Shown: piece by piece, positions 7,541 through 39,876 of the stretch | Numbering within the stretch: position 1 is the stretch's first letter | How the letters are laid out: each line of letters begins with the position of its first letter | Source: Actinomadura graeca | GTDB taxonomy: Bacteria > Actinomycetota > Actinomycetes > Streptosporangiales > Streptosporangiaceae | DNA: 64,000 bases | Assembly: GCF_019175365.1 (NCBI RefSeq) | Contig: NZ_CP059572.1 | Coordinates: 3,286,001 to 3,350,000, forward strand | Reading direction: 5' to 3' | The notes under the pieces: model-generated | Told to the model about the DNA's origin: nothing | Database searches by the model: none | Seen by the model: only the letters and a program-made list of their open reading frames with translations | Made by a program: the position numbers and the translations under genes

Positions 7541-7992
7541 GGGCCTGACCGGAAGGAAGTCCGGCTATGGGACAGGGTAGGGAAACAGGCGGAGCGGCTA
7601 TGACAGGCCGCTTCGACGGCACCGAGCACCGGCACGCGTACCCGAAGCTTCACGACTTGATGGGCACCTTGCAGGGTCGCCGCTTCGCCGTGCACCTGAG
7701 GGCCAGCCCGCTGGCCATCATCGTCACCAGGCCGGACGATCCGACGGGTGCCAGGCAGACGGTCACGTGCAAACCGCGCGTCACCGACCAGGACCGGATG
7801 TGGTTCTACGACGACGCCAACGGTGAGCCGATCGCCGAAGCCGAGGACATCATCGGCGCCGCGGTCATCATCGTCGGCAACCTGACCCCGACGCCATGAG
7901 CGACGCCGGGGAGACCCGCGTGGGCGGCTACATCCTCAAGGGCGGCACCGGCGTCTACATGCTCCTGGACCCCGAGACCGAAGACCCCCGCG
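7541..7992 (+). repeat. Duplicated unit, copy 1
   Basis: About 450 bases that recur at 9857-10310 in the same orientation. The unit starts with a shared upstream block (CGGGGCCTGACCGGAA, then CCGGCTATGG, perhaps the promoter), contains the whole 99-residue gene and stops inside the next gene right after GACCCCCGCG. Copies differ at scattered bases only. They flank an XRE regulator and a 90-residue gene, so recombination between them would delete both. Confidence 0.9.
7600..7899 (+). CDS. Conserved small protein, copy 1 of a duplicated gene
   Basis: Unrecognised protein of 99 residues, soluble by composition. Distinct segments are RFDGTEHRHAYPKLHDLM, FAVHLRASPLAIIV and DRMWFYDDANGEPIAEAED. 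The start at 7600 is set by GGAG just upstream and by the matching start of the second copy at 9918; an ATG 11 codons earlier is open but not shared. The two copies differ at about five residues. The stop overlaps the next start (ATGA), so the two small proteins are co-translated. Small genes divergent from XRE/TPR regulators are frequent in actinomycetes, and no function is known for this one. Confidence 0.75.
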   Translation: MTGRFDGTEHRHAYPKLHDLMGTLQGRRFAVHLRASPLAIIVTRPDDPTGARQTVTCKPRVTDQDRMWFYDDANGEPIAEAEDIIGAAVIIVGNLTPTP

Positions 7993-9856: not shown

Positions 9857-10310
9857 CGGGGCCTGACCGGAACGGAGGCCCGGCTATGGACAGGGTAACG
9901 AACTACGCGGAGCGGACATGAGCGATCGCTTCGACGGCACCGAGCACCGGCACGCGTACCCGAAGCTTCACGACTTGATGGGCACCTTGCAGGGTCGCCG
10001 CTTCGCCGTGCACCTGCGGGCCAGCCCGCTGGCCATCATCGTCACCAGGCCGGACGATCCGACGGATGCCAGGCAGACGGTCACATGCAAACCGCGCGCC
10101 ACCGACCAGGACCGGATGTGGTTCTACGACGACGCCAACGGCGAGCCGATCGCCGAAGCCGAGGACATCATCGGCGCCGCGGTCATCATCGCCGGCAACC
10201 TGACCCCGACGCCATGAGCGGCACCGAGGAGACCCGCGTGGGCGGCTACATCCTCAAGGGCGGCACCGGCGTCTACATGCTCCTGGACCCCGAAACCGAA
10301 GACCCCCGCG
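9857..10310 (+). repeat. Duplicated unit, copy 2
   Basis: Second copy of the unit at 7541-7992, same orientation, ending after GACCCCCGCG. Downstream sequence differs from that after copy 1, so 10310 is a clean junction. It fuses the unit to an unrelated gene 3' end. Confidence 0.9.
9918..10217 (+). CDS. Conserved small protein, copy 2
   Basis: Protein of 99 residues, nearly identical to the product of 7600-7899 (differences at residues 2, 3, about 50, 61 and 92). The start at 9918 has GGAG seven bases upstream. It is divergent from the XRE regulator at 9727, with the palindrome 9741-9753 between them. The stop overlaps the next ATG at 10214. The very low divergence, with all changes conservative, suggests a recent duplication or continuing gene conversion. 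Function is unknown. Confidence 0.75.
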   Translation: MSDRFDGTEHRHAYPKLHDLMGTLQGRRFAVHLRASPLAIIVTRPDDPTDARQTVTCKPRATDQDRMWFYDDANGEPIAEAEDIIGAAVIIAGNLTPTP

Positions 10311-10856: not shown

Positions 10857-11450
10857 GTGGCCCCGGATTTGCGTGCATCGCGTCCGGGGGCCGTGCTCGC
10901 CGTGCGGGCCGATGTCGTCGATGACGCGGCCGGTGCATCGGAGGTATGCACGACCGTCACGCGGCTGAGTGACAAGGGCACGGTCGTGCAGCTTCGTCCC
11001 AAGACCGAGGCGGGCTGGCGCGTGATCGCGATGTCGGGCCACCTTGTGGAGCTGTGCCGCCGCCGTATCGCGATGGCGTGGCCGCACCCGACCGGACGAT
11101 CACGATCGTCACGGCCGACGGCGACGAGGAAGGCGCCACGCCGCAGAGGTGGGCCTGCTGTTCCCCAGCCTGCCCGGCGGGGTGCGCAACCCCTCCAACG
11201 CCAACCGGGACATTAAGGACGTGCTCGACCGGGCCGGACGCTGGCAGGTTCGGACGGTTGACGTCCCACACCCTCCGGCGGACGGTGGCGACCCGCCTGG
11301 AGGACGAGGCCGACCTGAGCGCCCGCGCGATCGCCGACCACCTCGGCCACGCCAAGCCGAGCATGACCCAGGATGTCTACCTGGGGCGCAACGTGGCATC
11401 CGCCAAGGCGGCCTTGTCCTGGGCAAGGTTGCCTACCAAGGTGGGCATAA
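10857..11450 (+). pseudogene. Tyrosine recombinase (phage-type integrase) remnant
   Basis: C-terminal catalytic domain of an integrase split over three frames. VVQLRPKTEAGWRVIAMSG is in one frame (near 10985). GLLFPSLPGGVRNPSNANRD is in a second (near 11155). SHTLRRTVATRLEDE, HLGHAKPSM and QDVYLGR with the HxxR, HLGH and Tyr catalytic motifs are in a third (11260-11400). At least two frameshifts are needed, and the N-terminal DNA-binding part is gone. No stop follows in the last frame until after the tmRNA gene. The remnant lies about 60 bases from the 3' end of the tmRNA gene, a classic integration target, so it probably brought in the island now at 4840-11510. Confidence 0.85.
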
Positions 11451-11466
11451 AGTGGGAATGCAGCAG

Positions 11467-11505
11467 AGAAGCCGCCGACCAGACGGTGTCTGATCAGCGG
11501 CTTCT
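11467..11505. terminator. Hairpin after the tmRNA gene
   Basis: AGAAGCCGC and GCGGCTTCT form a perfect outer stem. An inner GACCAGAC/GTCTGATC stem with one mismatch extends it, with a GGT loop. It lies just past the tmRNA 3' end and also ends the integrase remnant. Confidence 0.6.
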
Positions 11506-11512
11506 TGTGTCG

Positions 11513-11881
11513 TGGAGGTGGCGGGAATCGAACCCGCGTCCTTCGGTAATGAGTCAGGGCTTCTCCGGGTGCAGCCTGCTCGGCGTTTTCTCAGCCCCGG
11601 CGCTCATGCAGGCAAGTCGCCGACGGGCTCAGCCGCTGTTTGTTTTTCCTACAGGCCCCGCGACCGGGCTTGCAGGTGGAGTCTCCTTACGATGCCAGAC
11701 CCCGGGTCGGAGACGCTCCCGGGCTGACAGAGTTCGCTACTCGCCTCAGGCGGCGAGGGCGAACTCGGACTGCTTCTTGTTGGCAGTTGTGGTTTGCTGT
11801 CACAGGATTTACGAGGTCACGACAGCAACCCTCGACCCGCTTCCCCTGGCTCGATCGACCGAAGTCGAAGCCGGTCACCCC
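11513..11881 (-). ncRNA. ssrA: tmRNA (transfer-messenger RNA)
   Basis: Ribosome-rescue RNA of about 369 bases. The 5' end GGGGGTGACC pairs with 3' CCACCTCC to form the acceptor stem. The T-arm is GCGGGTTCGATTCCCGC, near 11522-11540. CCA is not encoded and must be added. The tag reading frame, 11784 down to 11746, encodes ANKKQSEFALAA followed by TGA, of the actinobacterial type ending in ALAA. SmpB, its protein partner, is encoded at 14145-14618 on the same strand, with one gene between. The 3' end was probably used as an integration site. Confidence 0.97.
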
Positions 11882-12189
11882 CATGTTGAGTTGTCAAAGC
11901 GGCCGTCCGGGGACGTCCGCACCATGACGCTACAAGAGTAACGCGTCCGGGGGCAACGTGATTCCCGTGGGGGCGCACGTGAAACCCCGGTGGACGCGTC
12001 GCGCCCACCGGGGTCGACCGGCAGGGTCGGGCCGGTCCGGACGGCAGAGCCTCCCCCGAGACGAGGCTCTGGTCTCATCACGGCGACTGGAACCCGCAAC
12101 CCCCCAGGCGGAGCCCCAGTCACTTGGGAAGACGCAAGGGAGGGCACTGGAGGTTGCGTGCTCGGCGGTAAAGGGTTGCCAAAACCGGG
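11882..12189. other. Gap with two terminator-like hairpins
   Basis: 308 bases without a gene. Two perfect nine-base stems are visible: CAGAGCCTC/GAGGCTCTG at 12045-12071 and CCCCGGTGG/CCACCGGGG at 11985-12013. On the minus strand they follow the PBP homologue and precede the tmRNA, so they probably separate these transcripts. The tmRNA promoter should lie in 11882-11980; I could not pick convincing -35/-10 boxes. Confidence 0.55.
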
Positions 12190-14148
12190 TCAGGGGGTGC
12201 CTCTGCTGCCGGACGGGACGCCGCGGAGGAACGTGGCGGCGACCTTGGCGGCGGAGACGTGGCCTTCGAGGGCCACGGCGAAGGCGAGGTCGCCTCGGGA
12301 GCCCACGAACCAGGAGATCTCGCGTTTCTGGCCGCCCTCGGTGACGGCGGGCAGGGCGGCGACGCCGACGACGTCGCCGGACACGCGGGCGGGGGTGGCG
12401 AGGCCGGTCCTGATGGAGCGGGAGAGGAGCTTCTTGAGGCTGGAGATGGATTCGCGCTGGAGGTTGGTGGGCGGGACCTGGTCGGCCTTGGAGATGTCCT
12501 TGAGGATGTAGGGGGCCTTCCAGGTGCCGTTCTGGGCGGCGGCGGCGACCAGGGCCATGGCGAGGGGGCTGACCTGGACCTTGCCCTCGCCGATCATGGT
12601 GGCGGCCTTCTCGCCGTCGTTGGCGGGGGCCGGGACCGAGCCGGTGAAGGCGGGGACGGACAGCCCCCAGTCCTTGCCGAGGCCGAGACGGGACGCCTCC
12701 GCCATGAGCGTCTGCGCGCTGAGCCTGCCGCCGAGCTGGGCGAGGGTCGTCCGGCAGGAGTAGGCGAAGTGGGTGCCGAAGCCCCCGTCGGGGCGCGCCT
12801 TGTTGGTGAAGGTCAGGCCGCCGACGGTGACGGTGCCGGGGCAGGTCGTCTCGGTGGACTGGTTCATCCCGGCCTCGGAGAACAGGGCCTCGGCGGAGAC
12901 GATCCCGAAGGTCATGCCGGGCGGGTAGCGGCCCTCGAACGCGAGGTTCCTGCCGCTGGTCAGGTGGTTGGACACGGCGAGGACCTCGCCGGTGCTCGGG
13001 CGGAGGGCGACGAGTGAGCCGGTGACGGGCAGGCCGGCGAGGGCGTTGTCGGCCCTGCGCTGCATGGTGGGCTCAAGGGTCATGCGGACGTCCTGCGGCG
13101 GCTGGCCCGGCCAGGAGCGCAGTTCCTCGGTGTTCTTGCCGGTCGGGTCCTGCGCGACGACCCGGACGGTCGGGGTGCCGGCCAGGCGGCGCTGCTGGAG
13201 GAGCTGGACGCCGCTGACGCCGATGGTGTCGCCGGGCTGGTAGGGGGCGCCGACCTGCTGGAGCGTGTCGGCGGTGGCGGGGCCGAGGCTGCCGATCAGC
13301 TCCGGCGCGTACATGGGGTCGATGGGGACCTTGACGGGCTCGAAGTGCAGCCCGTCGATCTGGCGGAGCCGCTGGATGAGCGCGTTGTGGTCGGGGACCT
13401 GGAGGGTCAGCAGCGGCAGGAACTGCTGCGGCGGCGCGGAGCGGACGCGGCCGAGCAGGCGCTCGGAGTCCAGCCGGCGGCCGCCGTCGATCTTGGTCTG
13501 GCGGGCGAGGCCGTCCAGGGTGCGCTGCTGGTCCGCGAGGCGCCCGGGGTACACGCCGACGTTGTAGGCCCAGACCTCGCGCAGGACGGAGCGGCCCTGG
13601 TTGTCGCGGATGGGGGCGCGTTTCGGGACCTCGGTCAGCACCGCGAGCCGCTGGCCCGGCTTCAGCTTCGGGTTGATGATGGACGGGTCCCAGACGACCT
13701 TCCACCTGCCGCCCTGGCGCCGCAGGTGCAGCAGGCCCGTGTACGTCCAGGGCTGGCCGTTCTCGCCGAGGTCGACCTTGACCGAGAAGCGGGCGTCGGC
13801 CTCGTCGCCCTTCTTGTCGATCGCCTTGACGTCGGTGTCCTGGCCGGGGACGCCGAGGGCGAGGCGCAGCGACGCGGCGTCGAGCTGGGCGCGGACCTGG
13901 CCGAGGGCGTCGGAGACCTCCTTGCGGTCGGCGCCGACCGTCCGCTTGGCGGCCGCCGGGTAGTTGCCGACCTCCCAGGCGATCAGGAAGTCGCGGACGG
14001 CGGGCATCGCGGACGGCTCCGCCCAGCAGCCCGTCGTGAGCGTGCCGACGAGCGCGCCGCAGGACGCGATCGAGATCACCCGGCGCCGTACGGTGCGCGT
14101 GCCCCGCGGGGCGCGTCCGTGACCTCGACTGAGCATCGACACCCTCAC
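12190..14148 (-). CDS. Penicillin-binding-protein homologue with all catalytic motifs lost
   Basis: Exported protein of 652 residues with the layout of MecA/PBP2a-like transpeptidases: N-terminal membrane or lipoprotein-like signal (about residues 22-42, ending TLTTGC), an NTF2-like domain (about 45-160), a PBP dimerisation region and a C-terminal transpeptidase fold (about 355-645). The active-site motifs are changed. SxxK in the YPPG box reads MTFG (Ser and Lys both gone), SxN reads SCR, and the KTG strand reads GVAALPA. It therefore cannot acylate beta-lactams or crosslink stems by the known mechanism; a scaffold or sensor role is inferred. The GTG start overlaps the smpB stop; an ATG at 14136 is an alternative. 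Confidence 0.88.
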
Positions 14149-14618
14149 CGTCTCCTGAACCGGGCCGCCGCGGCCTTCTGCATCTCCCGGTCGGCTTCCC
14201 GCTTGGCGATGGCCTGCCGCTTGTCGTAGGACTTCTTACCACGGGCCAGGCCGATCTCGACCTTGGCCTTGCCGTCCTTGAAGTACAGCGCGAGGGGTAT
14301 CAGCGTCCACCCGGGCTCGGACGACTTGGCGATGATCTTCTGGATCTCGCGGCGGTGCAGCAGCAGCTTGCGGCGGCGCCGGGGGGCGTGGTTCGTCCAG
14401 GTGCCCTGCGTGTACTCGGGGATGTGGACGTGCTCCAGCCACACCTCGCCGTCCATCACGTGGGCGTACCCGTCGGCGAGGGACGCGCGTCCGGCGCGCA
14501 GCGCCTTCACCTCGGTGCCCATGAGCACCATGCCCGCTTCCCAGGTGTCGTCGATGTGGTAGTCGTAGCGGGCACGCTTGTTCTGGGCGATGAGCTTGCG
14601 CCCTGTGTCGCGTGGCAC
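14145..14618 (-). CDS. smpB: SsrA-binding protein SmpB
   Basis: tmRNA-binding protein of 157 residues that carries tmRNA into stalled ribosomes. Signature segments are [32 protein letters not shown] and the basic C-terminal tail [18 protein letters not shown], which helps occupy the empty mRNA channel. The GTG start at 14618 gives the normal length. The stop overlaps the PBP homologue's GTG start. The order ftsE-ftsX-smpB-tmRNA is conserved in many actinobacteria; here the PBP homologue is inserted between smpB and tmRNA. Confidence 0.98.
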
Positions 14619-14759: not shown

Positions 14760-15665
14760 TCAGATCTTCAGATATCTCCGCAGCGTAAGGAACGACGCGA
14801 TGGCGCACAGGAGCACGCCGAAGCAGATCGAGACGATGATCACGAAGACGACGTTGCTCCAGCCGAGCTTGCTGACGAGCTGGACGTCCTCGGCGAGCCG
14901 GTCGACGAGGAACAGCTTGCTGAACACCAGCAGGATCGAGGCGAACAGCCCGCCGATCATGCCCGCGATGGCGCCCTCCAGGATGAAGGGCATCTGGATA
15001 TAGGTGTTGGACGCGCCGACGAGCCGCATGATGCCCGTCTCCCGGCGCCGGTTGAACGCCGACAACCGGACGGTGTTGCCGACCAGCAGCACCGCGGCCA
15101 CCACCTGGATCAGGGCGATGAGCAGCGCGGCGACCTGGAGCCCGTTGAGGATCCGGAAGAACTTCTTCAGGATCTCCTGCTCGTTGATCACCGTGTCGAC
15201 GCCCGGCTGGCCGAGCATCGCCTGGGCGACCGCCTTGTACTCCTCCGGGTTCTTCAGCTTCACCCGGAACGAGTCGGGGATGTCGCCCTCGCGGGTGCTC
15301 TCCACGAAACCGGGCGATCCGGAGAAGCGGTCCTTGAACCGCGCGTACGCCTGCTGCTTGGTCTCGTACTGCACGTTGGAGACCTGGGACATCTTCTCCA
15401 GCTGCCCCTTGAGCGCGTCCCGCTGCTCGGGCGTGACGTCACGCTTCTGGCAGCTCTGGTTGGAGCTGGTCTTGGCGCACAGGAAGATCGAGACCTCGAT
15501 CTTGTCGTACCAGTAGCTCTTGGACTCGTCCACCTGGTTGCGCAGGAGCAGGCCGGTGCCGAAGAGCGCCATGGCGATGGCGACCGTGATGACGAGGGAG
15601 ATGGTCATCGTCATGTTCCGGCGGAGACCGATCCAGATCTCCTGGAGAACGAACTGTGCGCGCAT
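14760..15665 (-). CDS. ftsX: Cell-division permease-like protein FtsX
   Basis: Integral membrane partner of FtsE, 301 residues. It has a first membrane segment near residues 20-42, a large extracytoplasmic loop with a Cys pair (FLCAKTSSNQSCQK, about 62-75), and three further membrane segments from about residue 170 to the end, with the family's NTVRLSAFNRRRETGIMRLVGAS. In mycobacteria and streptomycetes FtsEX controls wall hydrolases at division sites through this loop. About 160 bases separate it from ftsE, more than usual, but the two are probably one operon. Confidence 0.97.
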   Translation of the reverse strand: MRAQFVLQEIWIGLRRNMTMTISLVITVAIAMALFGTGLLLRNQVDESKSYWYDKIEVSIFLCAKTSSNQSCQKRDVTPEQRDALKGQLEKMSQVSNVQYETKQQAYARFKDRFSGSPGFVESTREGDIPDSFRVKLKNPEEYKAVAQAMLGQPGVDTVINEQEILKKFFRILNGLQVAALLIALIQVVAAVLLVGNTVRLSAFNRRRETGIMRLVGASNTYIQMPFILEGAIAGMIGGLFASILLVFSKLFLVDRLAEDVQLVSKLGWSNVVFVIIVSICFGVLLCAIASFLTLRRYLKI

Positions 15666-15825: not shown

Positions 15826-16515
15826 TCAGTAGGCCTGGCCGTACACGCCGCGCGACTGGTCGCGGACGACCCGTCCGTCCTCCAGCTCGACGACGCGTTT
15901 GCGGAACGCGTCGACGATCGCGGCGTCGTGCGTGGCCATGACGACGGTGGTGCCGGTCCGGTTGATCCGGTCCAGCACCTTCATGATGCCGATGGACGTG
16001 GCGGGGTCGATGTTCCCCGTGGGCTCGTCCGCCAGCAGGATCATCGGCCGGTTGACGAACGCCCGCGCGATGGCGACGCGCTGCTGCTCGCCGCCGGACA
16101 GCTCGTCCGGCATCCGATGGGCCTTGCCCTCCAGGCCGACCAGGTCGATGACCTCCGGCACGACCTTGCCGATGAAACGCCGCGGCTTGCCGATCACCTC
16201 AAGGGCGAACGCGACGTTCTCGAAGACGTTCTTGTTGGGGAGCAGCCGGAAGTCCTGGAAGACGCAGCCGATTCTGCGGCGCAGGTGCGGCACCTTCCAG
16301 TTGGTCAGCCTGCTCAGGTCCTTGCCCGCCACGTGCACGTGACCCTGGGAAGGACGTTCCTCTTTGAGGATGAGTCGCAGGAAGGTCGACTTGCCGGAGC
16401 CGGAGGGACCCACCAGGAACAGGAACTCGCCCTTCTCGATGGCGACGTTCACATGCTGCAGGGCGGGCCGGTTCTGGCTCGGGTAGACCTTGGTGACGTT
16501 GTCGAAATGGATCAC
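15826..16515 (-). CDS. ftsE: Cell-division ATP-binding protein FtsE
   Basis: ABC-type ATPase of 229 residues that energises FtsX. Walker A is GPSGSGKST, the signature [14 protein letters not shown] and Walker [10 protein letters not shown]; an H-loop follows in ATHDAAIV. The GTG at 16515 ([12 protein letters not shown]) matches the usual N-terminus. The frame is open for 50 further codons, but that stretch lies in a region with a 24-base palindrome and reads as non-coding Arg/Pro-rich sequence. The ribosome site in front of the GTG is poor. Confidence 0.96.
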
Positions 16516-16945
16516 GGCTGCATCACGGCGGTTCAGTCTAGGGGTTGGGGAGCGGCCCGTTCCGTGGCCACGGAACGGGTCCGTGGTCTGCGGCCTGGGT
16601 CGCCGGGCTTCACGGCCGGGTGGACCGCGGAGCCTGCGAGCAGTGTAGAGGGGACAGTCAACCACCTCGGCCCGCCCGGCGCGGGACGCTTGGCCGGGAG
16701 CGGCGACACGCCGGGAATGCGGGACGGCCCGTTCGTGGCCATGCGGTTCACTGCCATGCGACCGTCTCCCGACGTCGGGCCGTTTCGTACCGTCGAGCTC
16801 CCGGACTTGCCGGAACGACCATACAGTCCGGCTACGCTGGATGATGGCGAAAGATACCTAATAGGTCGTCGATCGACGTTCTCACCCCGCACGGACTCAC
16901 CCCGCACGGACCCACGTGCCGTTCACGGAGATTGGGGCCCACGAC
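16516..16945. other. Intergenic region upstream of ftsE, with a 24-base perfect palindrome
   Basis: 430 bases between divergent ftsE and the small membrane gene at 16946. At 16556-16579 CCCGTTCCGTGG is followed directly by its reverse complement, with no spacer, 41 bases upstream of the ftsE start. Further on are CGTCGATCGACG (16867-16878, palindromic) and a short tandem repeat of CCCCGCACGGACTCA near 16887-16915. It must hold the ftsEX promoter. Confidence 0.6.
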
Positions 16946-37246: not shown

Positions 37247-37626
37247 GCCTTCCGGCCCGCCGAGGCGAGGACGGCATCGCCGTCCGGTCTTCATCGCGAT
37301 GGACCCCAGATGATCCGCAACCGCTTGCGGTGATGGGGTCCATCGTGATTAGGCTGTGACCACGGTGGCAGAAGATCCGCCGGCGCGGCCCCGTTGGTGC
37401 CGTGACCGGTGGGACCACCGGCCACAGACGTGGCTCGTACCGATCCGGCTGCGTTCCTTCGCAGCGTCGTCCGCCGGCGGCGCGGACCCGCCCCGACCGG
37501 CGGATCCGGCTCAGCGCGCCTCCCATCGCCCCCCGGCGTGCGCTTCCGCACGCCCTCGCGCGTGGCCCGGCGCCCCCCGCCTCCCGGACGACGGCCGACT
37601 CCGTACTCCACGTCGAACGAGGTCGC
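37247..37626. other. Intergenic region with a long inverted repeat
   Basis: 380 bases. At 37293-37349 ATCGCGATGGACCCCA pairs with TGGGGTCCATCGTGAT (one mismatch), and an inner CCGCAA/TTGCGG stem completes a two-tier terminator for the kinase gene. The rest (37350-37626) probably carries the promoter of the class A PBP; the PBP frame is open here but reads Arg/Pro-rich and non-coding. Confidence 0.7.
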
Positions 37627-39876
37627 ATGCACTCCCTGCCCCGGGCGCGCCGTTTCCGGCCCGCCCTCACCCGCCTGTCCCGCGTCCTGCGCCGCACGCT
37701 CCGGCTCCGCACGCTCCGGCTCCGCACGCTCCGGCGCCGCCGTCTCGCCATGACCGCCGTCGCGCTGCTGCTCGCGGCCGCCGGCGCCGTCGTGGTCGCC
37801 TACGTCCGGACGCCGCTGCCGACCGAGCCGCAGCCGGGCGTCACCGACGAGGGCTCGACGGTCTACTACGCCGACGGCCGGACGCCGCTGTTCCGCCTCG
37901 GCGCGAACCGGGAGATCGTCCGGCACGACCAGATCCCCGACCGGCTGCGGTGGGCCGTCCTCGCCGCCGAGGACCGCGGCTTCTACGGCGGCCACGGCGT
38001 CTCGCCCACCGGGACGATGCGCGCCCTGTGGAACAACGCGTCCGGCGGCGACACGCAGGGCGGCTCCACCATCACCCAGCAGCTCGCCCGCAACTACTTC
38101 AAGGGCCTCAGCAAGGACAGGACGGCCGGGCGCAAGATCAAGGAGATCTTCGTCGCGGTCAAGCTCGCCCGCAGGCGCTCCAAGGACGAGATCCTCGACC
38201 TCTACCTCAACACCGTCTACTTCGGCCGCGAGACGTCCGGGGTGCAGGCGGCGGCGCGCGCCTACTTCGACAAGGACGTCTGGCAGCTCGGCGTCGCCGA
38301 GGGCGCCCTGCTCGCCGCGATGATCCAGCGGCCGGCCTACTTCCGGACGCAGGGCGACGACGCCCCGGCGCGCGCGCTGCGCAGCCGCTGGCGGTACGTC
38401 CTGGACGGGATGGTGTCGATGGGCAGGCTCAGTCCCGCCGAGGCCGCCCGGCAGCGCTTCCCCCGGACCCAGGACCAGTGGCGCGGGGTGGCGCCGTCCG
38501 GCCAGGGTCTGCTGGTCAGGCAGCGCGTCCTCGCCGAACTGGAGGGTCTCGGCATCCCGGAGCGCACCGTGGTGAACGGGCGCCTGAGGATCTACACCGG
38601 GCTCGACCGGCGCTGGATGGAGCACGCGGAACGGGCCATGCGTCAGGTCCGCGAGCCGGAGTGGCCTCGCAACGCGCGGGGCGGCCTCATCGCGGTGGAC
38701 CCGCGGGACGGCGCGGTCAAGGCGTTCTACGGCGGCGATCCGCGGCGCAGCATGTTCGACTCGGTGTTTAACCCGGTCGCGCAGGCGGGCTCCACGTTCA
38801 AGCCGTACGTGCTGGCCGCCGCCCTGCGCCGCGGCTACAGCGTCCGGACGAGGGTGAGCGGGAGGTCGCCGCTGAGGTTCGCGCCGGACGGCTCCGTCAC
38901 CCCGATGACCGCCCCCGGGTACAAGGTCGCCAACGACGAGGAGATCGGGTCGCTCGGGACCGTCGACCTGGTCAGGGCGACGGCGCTGTCGGTCAACACC
39001 GGCTTCGTCAAGGCGGCGCTGAAGGTCGGCGTCGCGAACGTGCTGGAGACGGCGCGGCGGTTCGGCGTCCCCGAGTCGGCGCTGAAGCCGCACAAGGGGC
39101 AGGCCGGGATCGCGCTCGGCGTCCCCGACGTCGCCGCCGCCGACCAGGCCGCCGGGTACGCGGCCTTCGCCAACGGCGGCAGGGCCGTGACCCCGCACCT
39201 GATCACCCGGATCGTGGACGCGCGGGGGCGCCGGGTGCCGCTCCCTTGGGACCGGCACGACCGGCACGACAGTTACGACCGGCACGACGGGCAGGGCGGC
39301 CTGGGCAGGCAGGGCGGACGGGTGCTGGACGGCGAGCAGGCCGCGCAGGCGACCTACGCGATGCGGGCGGTCGTGACCGGCGGGACGGGCAGGCGCGCGG
39401 CCCTGCCCGACCGGGACGCCGCCGGCAAGACCGGGACGACCGACGGAAACCGCGCCGCCTGGTTCGTCGGGTACGTCCCACAGCTGTCGGCGGCGGTGGT
39501 GATGGCCAACACCGAGCGCGCACCGCTCCGAGGGCTGCCCGGCCATCCCGGGAAGGTCGCCGGAGAGAACCTCCCGGCGACCGTGTGGCGGTCGTTCATG
39601 GAGGAGGTCACCCGCGACATGCCCGCGCTGCCCTTCCCCGAGCCCGCCTTCACCGGTGTGGCGGCGGACTGGGACGACCCCGGTCCCGGCCAGGGCGAAG
39701 GCCCCGGCAAGGCGCCGGGCACCGGCGGGACACCGGATCCCGGCGGGACACCGAATCCCGGCGCGACGCCCTCGCCCGGCGGAACACCCTCGCTGACGCG
39801 GAACCCGCGCGGGACGCCCGCCCCGCCGAAGGACGCCCGCAAGAAGCCCTGCGCGCCCTCCTGCCCCACGTCCTGA
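37627..39876 (+). CDS. Class A penicillin-binding protein (transglycosylase/transpeptidase)
   Basis: Bifunctional wall polymerase of 749 residues. The cytoplasmic Arg/Leu-rich N-terminus is followed by one membrane helix (about 41-60). The glycosyltransferase domain has AEDRGFYGGHG and GGSTITQQLARN. The transpeptidase has all three motifs: GSTFK, SVN and GKTGTT. Oddities are a His/Asp-rich insertion DRHDRHDSYDRHDGQGG before the KTG motif and a Gly/Pro/Thr-rich C-terminal tail of about 70 residues with repeated GGTP units and two Cys near the end. The ATG at 37627 is chosen because it opens the charged N-tail. It lies between a wall-sugar kinase and a hexosaminidase. Confidence 0.94.
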   Translation: MHSLPRARRFRPALTRLSRVLRRTLRLRTLRLRTLRRRRLAMTAVALLLAAAGAVVVAYVRTPLPTEPQPGVTDEGSTVYYADGRTPLFRLGANREIVRHDQIPDRLRWAVLAAEDRGFYGGHGVSPTGTMRALWNNASGGDTQGGSTITQQLARNYFKGLSKDRTAGRKIKEIFVAVKLARRRSKDEILDLYLNTVYFGRETSGVQAAARAYFDKDVWQLGVAEGALLAAMIQRPAYFRTQGDDAPARALRSRWRYVLDGMVSMGRLSPAEAARQRFPRTQDQWRGVAPSGQGLLVRQRVLAELEGLGIPERTVVNGRLRIYTGLDRRWMEHAERAMRQVREPEWPRNARGGLIAVDPRDGAVKAFYGGDPRRSMFDSVFNPVAQAGSTFKPYVLAAALRRGYSVRTRVSGRSPLRFAPDGSVTPMTAPGYKVANDEEIGSLGTVDLVRATALSVNTGFVKAALKVGVANVLETARRFGVPESALKPHKGQAGIALGVPDVAAADQAAGYAAFANGGRAVTPHLITRIVDARGRRVPLPWDRHDRHDSYDRHDGQGGLGRQGGRVLDGEQAAQATYAMRAVVTGGTGRRAALPDRDAAGKTGTTDGNRAAWFVGYVPQLSAAVVMANTERAPLRGLPGHPGKVAGENLPATVWRSFMEEVTRDMPALPFPEPAFTGVAADWDDPGPGQGEGPGKAPGTGGTPDPGGTPNPGATPSPGGTPSLTRNPRGTPAPPKDARKKPCAPSCPTS
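37692..37736 (+). repeat. Three 15-base tandem repeats inside the PBP gene
   Basis: CCGCACGCTCCGGCT repeated three times, the last with a final G. In the PBP frame it encodes RTLRL-RTLRL-RTLRR, a basic segment just before the membrane helix. Copy number may vary between strains. Confidence 0.85.

Follow-up and report, generated by a model that had tools for sequence, protein, structure and literature searches.

S. aureus PBP2a, E. faecium PBP5 and B. subtilis PBP3 share an overall fold and one domain order, an NTF2-like MecA_N domain followed by PBP_dimer (the pedestal) and the transpeptidase. In PBP2a an allosteric peptidoglycan site opens the active site, as described in the accessible part of PMC7617827. 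According to the accessible part of PMC8078798, the pedestal domains of class B penicillin-binding proteins (PBPs) activate SEDS polymerases, and catalytically inactive PBP2B supports division, the cross-linking then likely coming from PBP3; how the chemistry of class B PBPs relates to their activating or organising role has so far been asked, in that part of the same source, with dead laboratory mutants. Evolution seems to have made and kept such a dead mutant across a large part of one bacterial order (here, the grouping used in the genome search), in a gene adjoining smpB that we analyzed in Actinomadura graeca.

The window, that is, the whole stretch of 64,000 nt analyzed here (NZ_CP059572.1, positions 3,286,001 to 3,350,000), carries this gene between those for tmRNA and SmpB (Table 1). 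Its product has the domain order of the three proteins named above, with all three Pfam domains above the cut-offs (Transpeptidase, 75.5 bits; MecA_N, 48.3; PBP_dimer, 36.9). The AlphaFold model (mean pLDDT 89.3, pTM 0.83) is structurally closest to B. subtilis PBP3 (TM 0.64, rmsd 7.6) and PBP2a, followed by E. faecium PBP5; the VIA-align rows span mainly residues 168–647 and hardly cover the NTF2 domain. The preliminary description of a full-length PBP2a-like protein with MTFG, SCR and no KTG is confirmed by Pfam, the model and the alignment. It had also pointed to the intact frame of 652 codons: there is indeed no internal stop, but in this GC-rich DNA an open frame says little by itself, because overlapping plus-strand ORFs of 528 and 566 aa in the neighboring stretch are open as well, and it is conservation that carries the case. 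A chance ORF or a pseudogene is ruled out by the Pfam domains, the conserved locus, the open frames in relatives and dN/dS, and an oddity of a single strain, by the motif loss common to relatives. Translation more likely starts at ATG 14136 (648 aa) than at GTG 14148, since P0001, the 648-aa orthologue in A. macra, begins at the matching position and a GAGGG stretch stands in front; this ATG lies 8 bases past the smpB stop, while GTG 14148 overlaps smpB.

Table 1. Features of the smpB–ssrA locus, with positions counted from the first letter of the window.
Feature	Position	Strand	Basis or remark
tmRNA (ssrA)	11512..11882	−	downstream of the pseudo-PBP gene
pseudo-PBP gene	12190..14148	−	ORF list; 652 codons from GTG 14148; Pfam MecA_N + PBP_dimer + Transpeptidase
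transpeptidase domain, degenerate, residues 350–640	12229..13101	−	Pfam; fold kept in model
VAA, residues 596–598, place of lost KTG	12355..12363	−	sequence, alignment
SCR, residues 464–466, remnant of SxN	12751..12759	−	sequence, alignment
Cys436, possible pairing with Cys465 (12754–12756)	12841..12843	−	both invariant
YPPGMTFG, residues 408–415, remnant of YPPG-SxxK nucleophile/general-base motif	12904..12927	−	sequence, alignment
PBP_dimer (pedestal) domain, complete, residues 174–343	13120..13629	−	profile 3–179 of 180
NTF2-like MecA_N domain, residues 47–166	13651..14010	−	Pfam; most conserved domain in dead sets
Cys41, lipobox-like LTTGC	14026..14028	−	probable lipid anchor; Cys conservation in relatives
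smpB	14145..14618	−	ORF named from sequence and conserved order in relatives
ftsX	14760..15665	−	ORF named from sequence and conserved order in relatives
ftsE	15826..16665	−	ORF named from sequence and conserved order; true start probably further in

The catalytic motifs were compared in three sets of proteins: an Actinomadura-type dead set (120 listed of 346 significant homologues), a second dead set of 119 listed proteins, mostly from Nocardiopsis and relatives where named, and an intact set of 120 listed relatives of L139, an intact orthologue. One Actinomadura-type protein, P0058, carries a Mycobacterium tuberculosis label in the source database, and its assembly is probably mislabelled or contaminated. 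The SxxK Lys is present in none of the 239 listed dead-set rows (120 + 119), versus all 120 listed rows of the intact set. Both Ser and Lys of SxxK are missing from all 120 listed Actinomadura-type proteins, and the 119 listed Nocardiopsis-led ones have Ser at position 412 in one case, the SxN Asn in 19 and a Lys at the aligned KTG position in two, with KTG[T/S] in none. KTG strings do occur in 13/120 and 3/119 listed dead rows, never at the motif position. By alignment, all 120 listed intact proteins retain Ser, Lys, SxN and KTG, and a strict text pattern catches 106 of them.

The same picture is observed at the locus itself. Ser 412, Lys 415, Asn 466 and Lys 596 were found in none of the 102 loci read (L043–L114, n = 72; L013–L042, n = 30), which partly come from the same species and include this genome as L013. 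Of 20 further best matches from other genomes of the order, 19 were readable, and all of these lack the SxxK Lys and KTG; L115, L126, L128 and L133 still have Ser at 412, with the Lys missing in all four. The gene of L134 is probably the same as that of P0277, a degenerate protein of 667 residues. Matches were obtained in 297/297 genomes, a figure that lumps dead and active relatives together and is no count of the dead gene.

No nearby residue is seen to replace the nucleophile, in agreement with the preliminary description: position 412 is variable (mostly L or M in the Actinomadura-type set, mostly G, E or Q in the Nocardiopsis-led set), and nowhere in the alignment of either dead set is a Lys conserved at 93% or more. 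Positions 415 (mostly G versus mostly T) and 596 (mostly V versus mostly Q) differ between the two sets in the same way. A substitute nucleophile was rejected, as the transpeptidase domain has neither a conserved Lys nor a candidate peculiar to the dead sets. The window protein, then, retains the architecture of a catalytic class B PBP and lacks SxxK, SxN and KTG altogether; it shows the features of a PBP-superfamily pseudoenzyme, namely the homologous fold, clade-wide loss of essential residues, purifying selection and a conserved locus. From the sequence it is near-certain that SxxK chemistry has been lost, and the protein is predicted to have no catalytic activity.

Cys is found at position 41 in 108/120 and 86/119 listed dead relatives and in 111/120 listed intact ones. 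We take the LTTGC at this place to match the lipobox pattern, with an atypical residue at –3, and the protein is probably anchored through this putative lipidation site. Cys436 and Cys465 are both present in every listed row of the two dead sets (120/120 and 119/119) and of the intact set (120/120), and possibly form a structural disulfide common to the intact relatives.

In five genomes that lie outside the dead clade (L139, L159, L234, L236, and L237), the gene at this smpB locus is a full-length intact orthologue, with the motifs PGSTFK, SCNT and KTGT. Outside the order, where we considered 36 smpB loci from 35 genomes of 31 families, a PBP gene downstream of smpB was found in L139 and L159 only and not found in 29 of the 31 families, with the stretches of L149 and L158 ending less than 1 kb from smpB. 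Within the order, family f3 (three genomes; L234, L236, L237) has the intact full-length enzyme at the ftsX–smpB place, and the genes read from families f2 (L115/L235, one genome) and f1 have the dead form. In a quick tree built from the NTF2 and transpeptidase columns, with the motif columns removed, the dead proteins form one clade (SH-aLRT 100). An earlier full-length tree had given a three-way fork; with 57 rows of its alignment, the AU test does not reject one dead clade (p-AU 0.596). Multiple independent losses were rejected given the single clade of the former tree, with which the AU test is compatible. The f3 orthologues grouped with compact sibling PBPs at weak support (83), and L007, a sibling from the A. 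graeca genome, forms a long branch of unsure placement.

Because intact orthologues exist at the locus and the dead proteins form a single clade, an active class B PBP beside smpB probably lost catalysis, most likely once, and was then kept. An intact SxxK at the same locus had been named in the preliminary description as a finding that would speak against it. Such genes do exist, but they belong to genomes outside the dead clade, so that the objection holds in form, not in substance, and catalysis is not rescued here.

The gene neighborhood is highly conserved. The dead PBP gene adjoins smpB in 72/72 (L043–L114) and 30/30 (L013–L042) loci and in 20/20 of the further best matches from the order, with tmRNA downstream in 71/72, 30/30 and 18/20 of them, respectively; L101 has no tmRNA within its stretch. 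Every one of the 70 named loci with contigs extending to ftsX shows the order ftsE–ftsX–smpB–PBP. Judged by gap size, 47 of these 70 have an extra gene between ftsX and smpB. It looked by eye like an S41-type protease in the four gaps read and, in L047 (L047:4119-5492), the sole case run against Pfam, it has Peptidase_S41 and PDZ domains, so that this one is not a wall hydrolase. The remaining 23 loci have no room for an S41/PDZ gene, which is missing in the window and in its nearest named relatives, L043–L046. In two Actinocorallia loci, L110 and L113, the tblastn matches of smpB and the dead PBP overlap by 20 and 16 bases, a packing tighter than in most Actinomadura loci.

On the other side of the locus, a phage-type integrase fragment (11054–11512; PF00589, 28.4 bits at a cut-off of 27.1) abuts the 3′ end of tmRNA. 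The window is collinear with A. macra (L043), L044 and L045 only as far as 11510–11512, with a further 180-base match to L044 at 10988–11165, and L047 and L050 are collinear on to 11468 and 11369; ssrA may carry an integrative element, or what is left of one, at its 3′ end. Further left, two near-identical small ORFs of about 99 aa (7567–7899 and 9918–10217), 2 kb apart, are a recent local duplication.

The distribution of constraint along the protein differs sharply between dead and intact relatives. The intact set is taxonomically wider than the dead ones, although pairs were matched on total identity. Intact relatives at about 50% total identity have mean identities of 0.37 in NTF2, 0.45 in the pedestal and 0.58 in the transpeptidase domain, versus 0.63/0.59, 0.58/0.57 and 0.47/0.46, respectively, in the two dead sets (total 0.54 and 0.52). 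When motif regions were masked, rows thinned to 80% identity and pairs of 0.47–0.58 total identity taken, the transpeptidase domain proved more similar than NTF2 in 97% of 2015 intact pairs, compared to 0.3% and 0.5% of the dead pairs (n = 382 and 737), and more similar than the pedestal in 97% of intact pairs, compared to 5.5% and 10% of dead ones. In the dead clade constraint has moved from the transpeptidase domain towards NTF2 and the pedestal. In the most divergent Nocardiopsis-led pairs (n = 924, total 0.35–0.45, about 0.37), the pedestal is the lowest (0.318; transpeptidase, 0.378; NTF2, 0.427), and therefore a pedestal interface common to the whole clade is left unsupported.

In the Actinomadura-type set the most strongly conserved stretches span residues 300–310 (within the pedestal), 52–62 and 230–240, all of them 11 residues long; the YPPG box has a conservation score of 0.86. 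A number of polar residues in the N-terminal half (S46, Q88, D90, D126, R167, Y303, and T308), as well as W346 and W543, reach at least 93% conservation in the dead sets without doing so in the intact set. Median dN/dS over 23 pairs is 0.27 for NTF2, 0.28 for the pedestal and 0.38 for the transpeptidase domain, with values below 1 in all 23; the medians for neighboring genes are 0.10 for smpB (23 pairs), 0.17 for ftsX (22) and 0.03 for ftsE (19). These are Nei–Gojobori estimates, rough in very GC-rich DNA, on pairs hand-picked from near neighbors. By these medians the whole pseudo-PBP is constrained, NTF2 most, yet less than its neighbors. The frame is open for at least 639 codons in all 102 loci read. 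The earlier proposal of selection for something other than catalysis is supported by dN/dS, the conserved locus and the shift of constraint.

Active siblings are encoded elsewhere in the same genomes. In A. graeca 12 loci match PF00905, and the 11 others all have KTG; a class A PBP gene in the window (37402–39876; Transgly and Transpeptidase, 824 aa) also has it. A relative of L007 is found at E ≤ 1e-40 in 91/91 genomes of the order; in the three f3 genomes it is the gene at the locus that matches, and this may also hold for some of the other 88. SxxK, SxN and KTG are intact in the ORFs of 17 of the 18 sibling loci read; L230 yielded no such ORF. L223, L225, L226 and L229 consist of MecA_N and Transpeptidase and match only about positions 114–179 of the PBP_dimer profile (180 positions), in two cases with a score below the cut-off; L007 has no PBP_dimer match. 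The siblings are compact: between window-protein positions 160 and 352, 14 of them have a median of 108.5 residues (75–149), while the dead and the intact full-length proteins both have 189. A second NTF2-PBP gene was not found in the intact-locus genomes G302 and G346 (E ≤ 1e-25), nor in G002, G004 and G006 (E ≤ 1e-40 and E ≤ 1e-50). The exceptions among dead-type genomes are G109 and G272, where the locus gene was the sole match at E ≤ 1e-50, so that, with L230, the complementarity of dead gene and active siblings, as read from these searches, is incomplete. In L251 (G231), a relative of the compact type, the three motifs are replaced by PGGAF, RCTT and HAAT; this is perhaps a second, independently dead PBP.

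With a confidence slightly above even, we propose that the class B PBP beside smpB lost its chemistry and was kept as an anchored, non-catalytic regulatory or scaffold subunit, with siblings catalyzing. An ancestral class B PBP with intact transpeptidase chemistry would have sat downstream of smpB, and this chemistry would have been lost in the ancestor of most of the order, including Actinomadura, Thermomonospora, Actinoallomurus and Nocardiopsis among named members. The protein would have been retained as a secreted, probably lipid-anchored pseudoenzyme, acting on peptidoglycan synthesis through its NTF2-like and complete pedestal domains, and cross-linking would be supplied by the siblings, with their SxxK, SxN and KTG and shortened pedestal. 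The anchor as well as the scaffold or allosteric role are predictions from sequence. Candidate partners may be an active sibling, a SEDS polymerase, FtsX or peptidoglycan itself; the complete pedestal, a feature of SEDS partners, is present, but standard SEDS partners make a transmembrane contact that a lipid anchor would take away, which counts against the proposal. That one enzyme has been split in two, the dead copy at smpB keeping the NTF2–pedestal half and supplying the pedestal in trans to compact siblings that keep catalysis but lack the front part of the pedestal, is unlikely in our estimate; if true, this would be a heteromeric transpeptidase with its regulatory and catalytic halves on different genes.

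Other explanations place the function of the protein elsewhere. The old active-site cleft could serve as a non-covalent receptor for stem peptides or beta-lactams, reporting the state of the wall, and the fold and the YPPG/TF frame round the cleft are indeed kept, as is the SxN Asn in the 19 Nocardiopsis-led rows mentioned above; nevertheless, cleft motif positions 412, 415 and 596 vary from one lineage to another, and constraint is generally weakest in the transpeptidase domain, which weakens the earlier suggestion of wall-precursor or beta-lactam binding there and makes this reading unlikely. Similarly unlikely, though in line with the strongest constraint being in the NTF2 and pedestal lobes, is a peptidoglycan sensor that would use a putative PBP2a-like allosteric-type site in these lobes with no catalytic output; the nearest folds include the PBP2a structures 3zg5 and 3zfz, which by their titles have a peptidoglycan analogue or muramic acid in the allosteric site. 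An adaptor docked to FtsX for FtsEX-controlled processes would fit the gene order observed in all 70 named loci reaching ftsX. The adjacency, stressed in the preliminary description, is real but says little, because the same neighbors surround the intact orthologues L139, L234, L236 and L237, and in most other families of the class ftsX lies near smpB without a PBP (none found downstream of smpB in 29/31, with two of these stretches ending less than 1 kb from smpB); the conserved neighborhood may be inherited rather than functional, and we regard such an adaptor as improbable. Residual or altered catalysis through another residue is very improbable: Ser is seen at 412 in four loci and in one of the 119 listed rows of the second set, but all Ser-412 cases lack the SxxK Lys, and the domain offers no conserved Lys or nucleophile candidate specific to the dead sets. 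Least credible of all is a decaying gene carried along with smpB, for while the pseudo-PBP evolves faster than smpB, ftsX and ftsE, its frame and dN/dS in the relatives, given above, contradict decay. The non-catalytic subunit is the preferred explanation.

Since the dead protein can be compared with intact orthologues from the same locus and shares its cells with active siblings, such a non-catalytic role is directly testable. Database names for these proteins, where given, are mostly penicillin-binding transpeptidase, FtsI or PBP2, which would distort any count of beta-lactam targets in this group of actinomycetes.

Among open-licence articles, searched by titles and the starts of abstracts (weak evidence of absence), no naturally dead, clade-wide class B PBP was found. 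Unlike PBP2a and other MecA-type PBPs, the window protein has no SxxK, SxN or KTG, carries a lipobox-like Cys and is encoded chromosomally at smpB–ssrA. Compared to the intact orthologues, it shares the smpB neighbor and, with L139, the same three Pfam domains, but has lost the PGSTFK, SCNT and KTGT that they retain. The compact siblings (L007 in this genome; L223, L225, L226, and L229) belong to the same superfamily and differ in having intact catalytic motifs and a reduced pedestal. A functional parallel is provided by inactive PBP2B and other FtsI homologues, likewise class B PBPs valued for their non-catalytic part; those are, in the accessible part of PMC8078798, laboratory mutants of active enzymes, whereas here the loss is natural and common to a large clade. 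The architecture itself is known; what is new is the conserved loss of catalysis, alongside compact active siblings and orthologues still intact at the locus.
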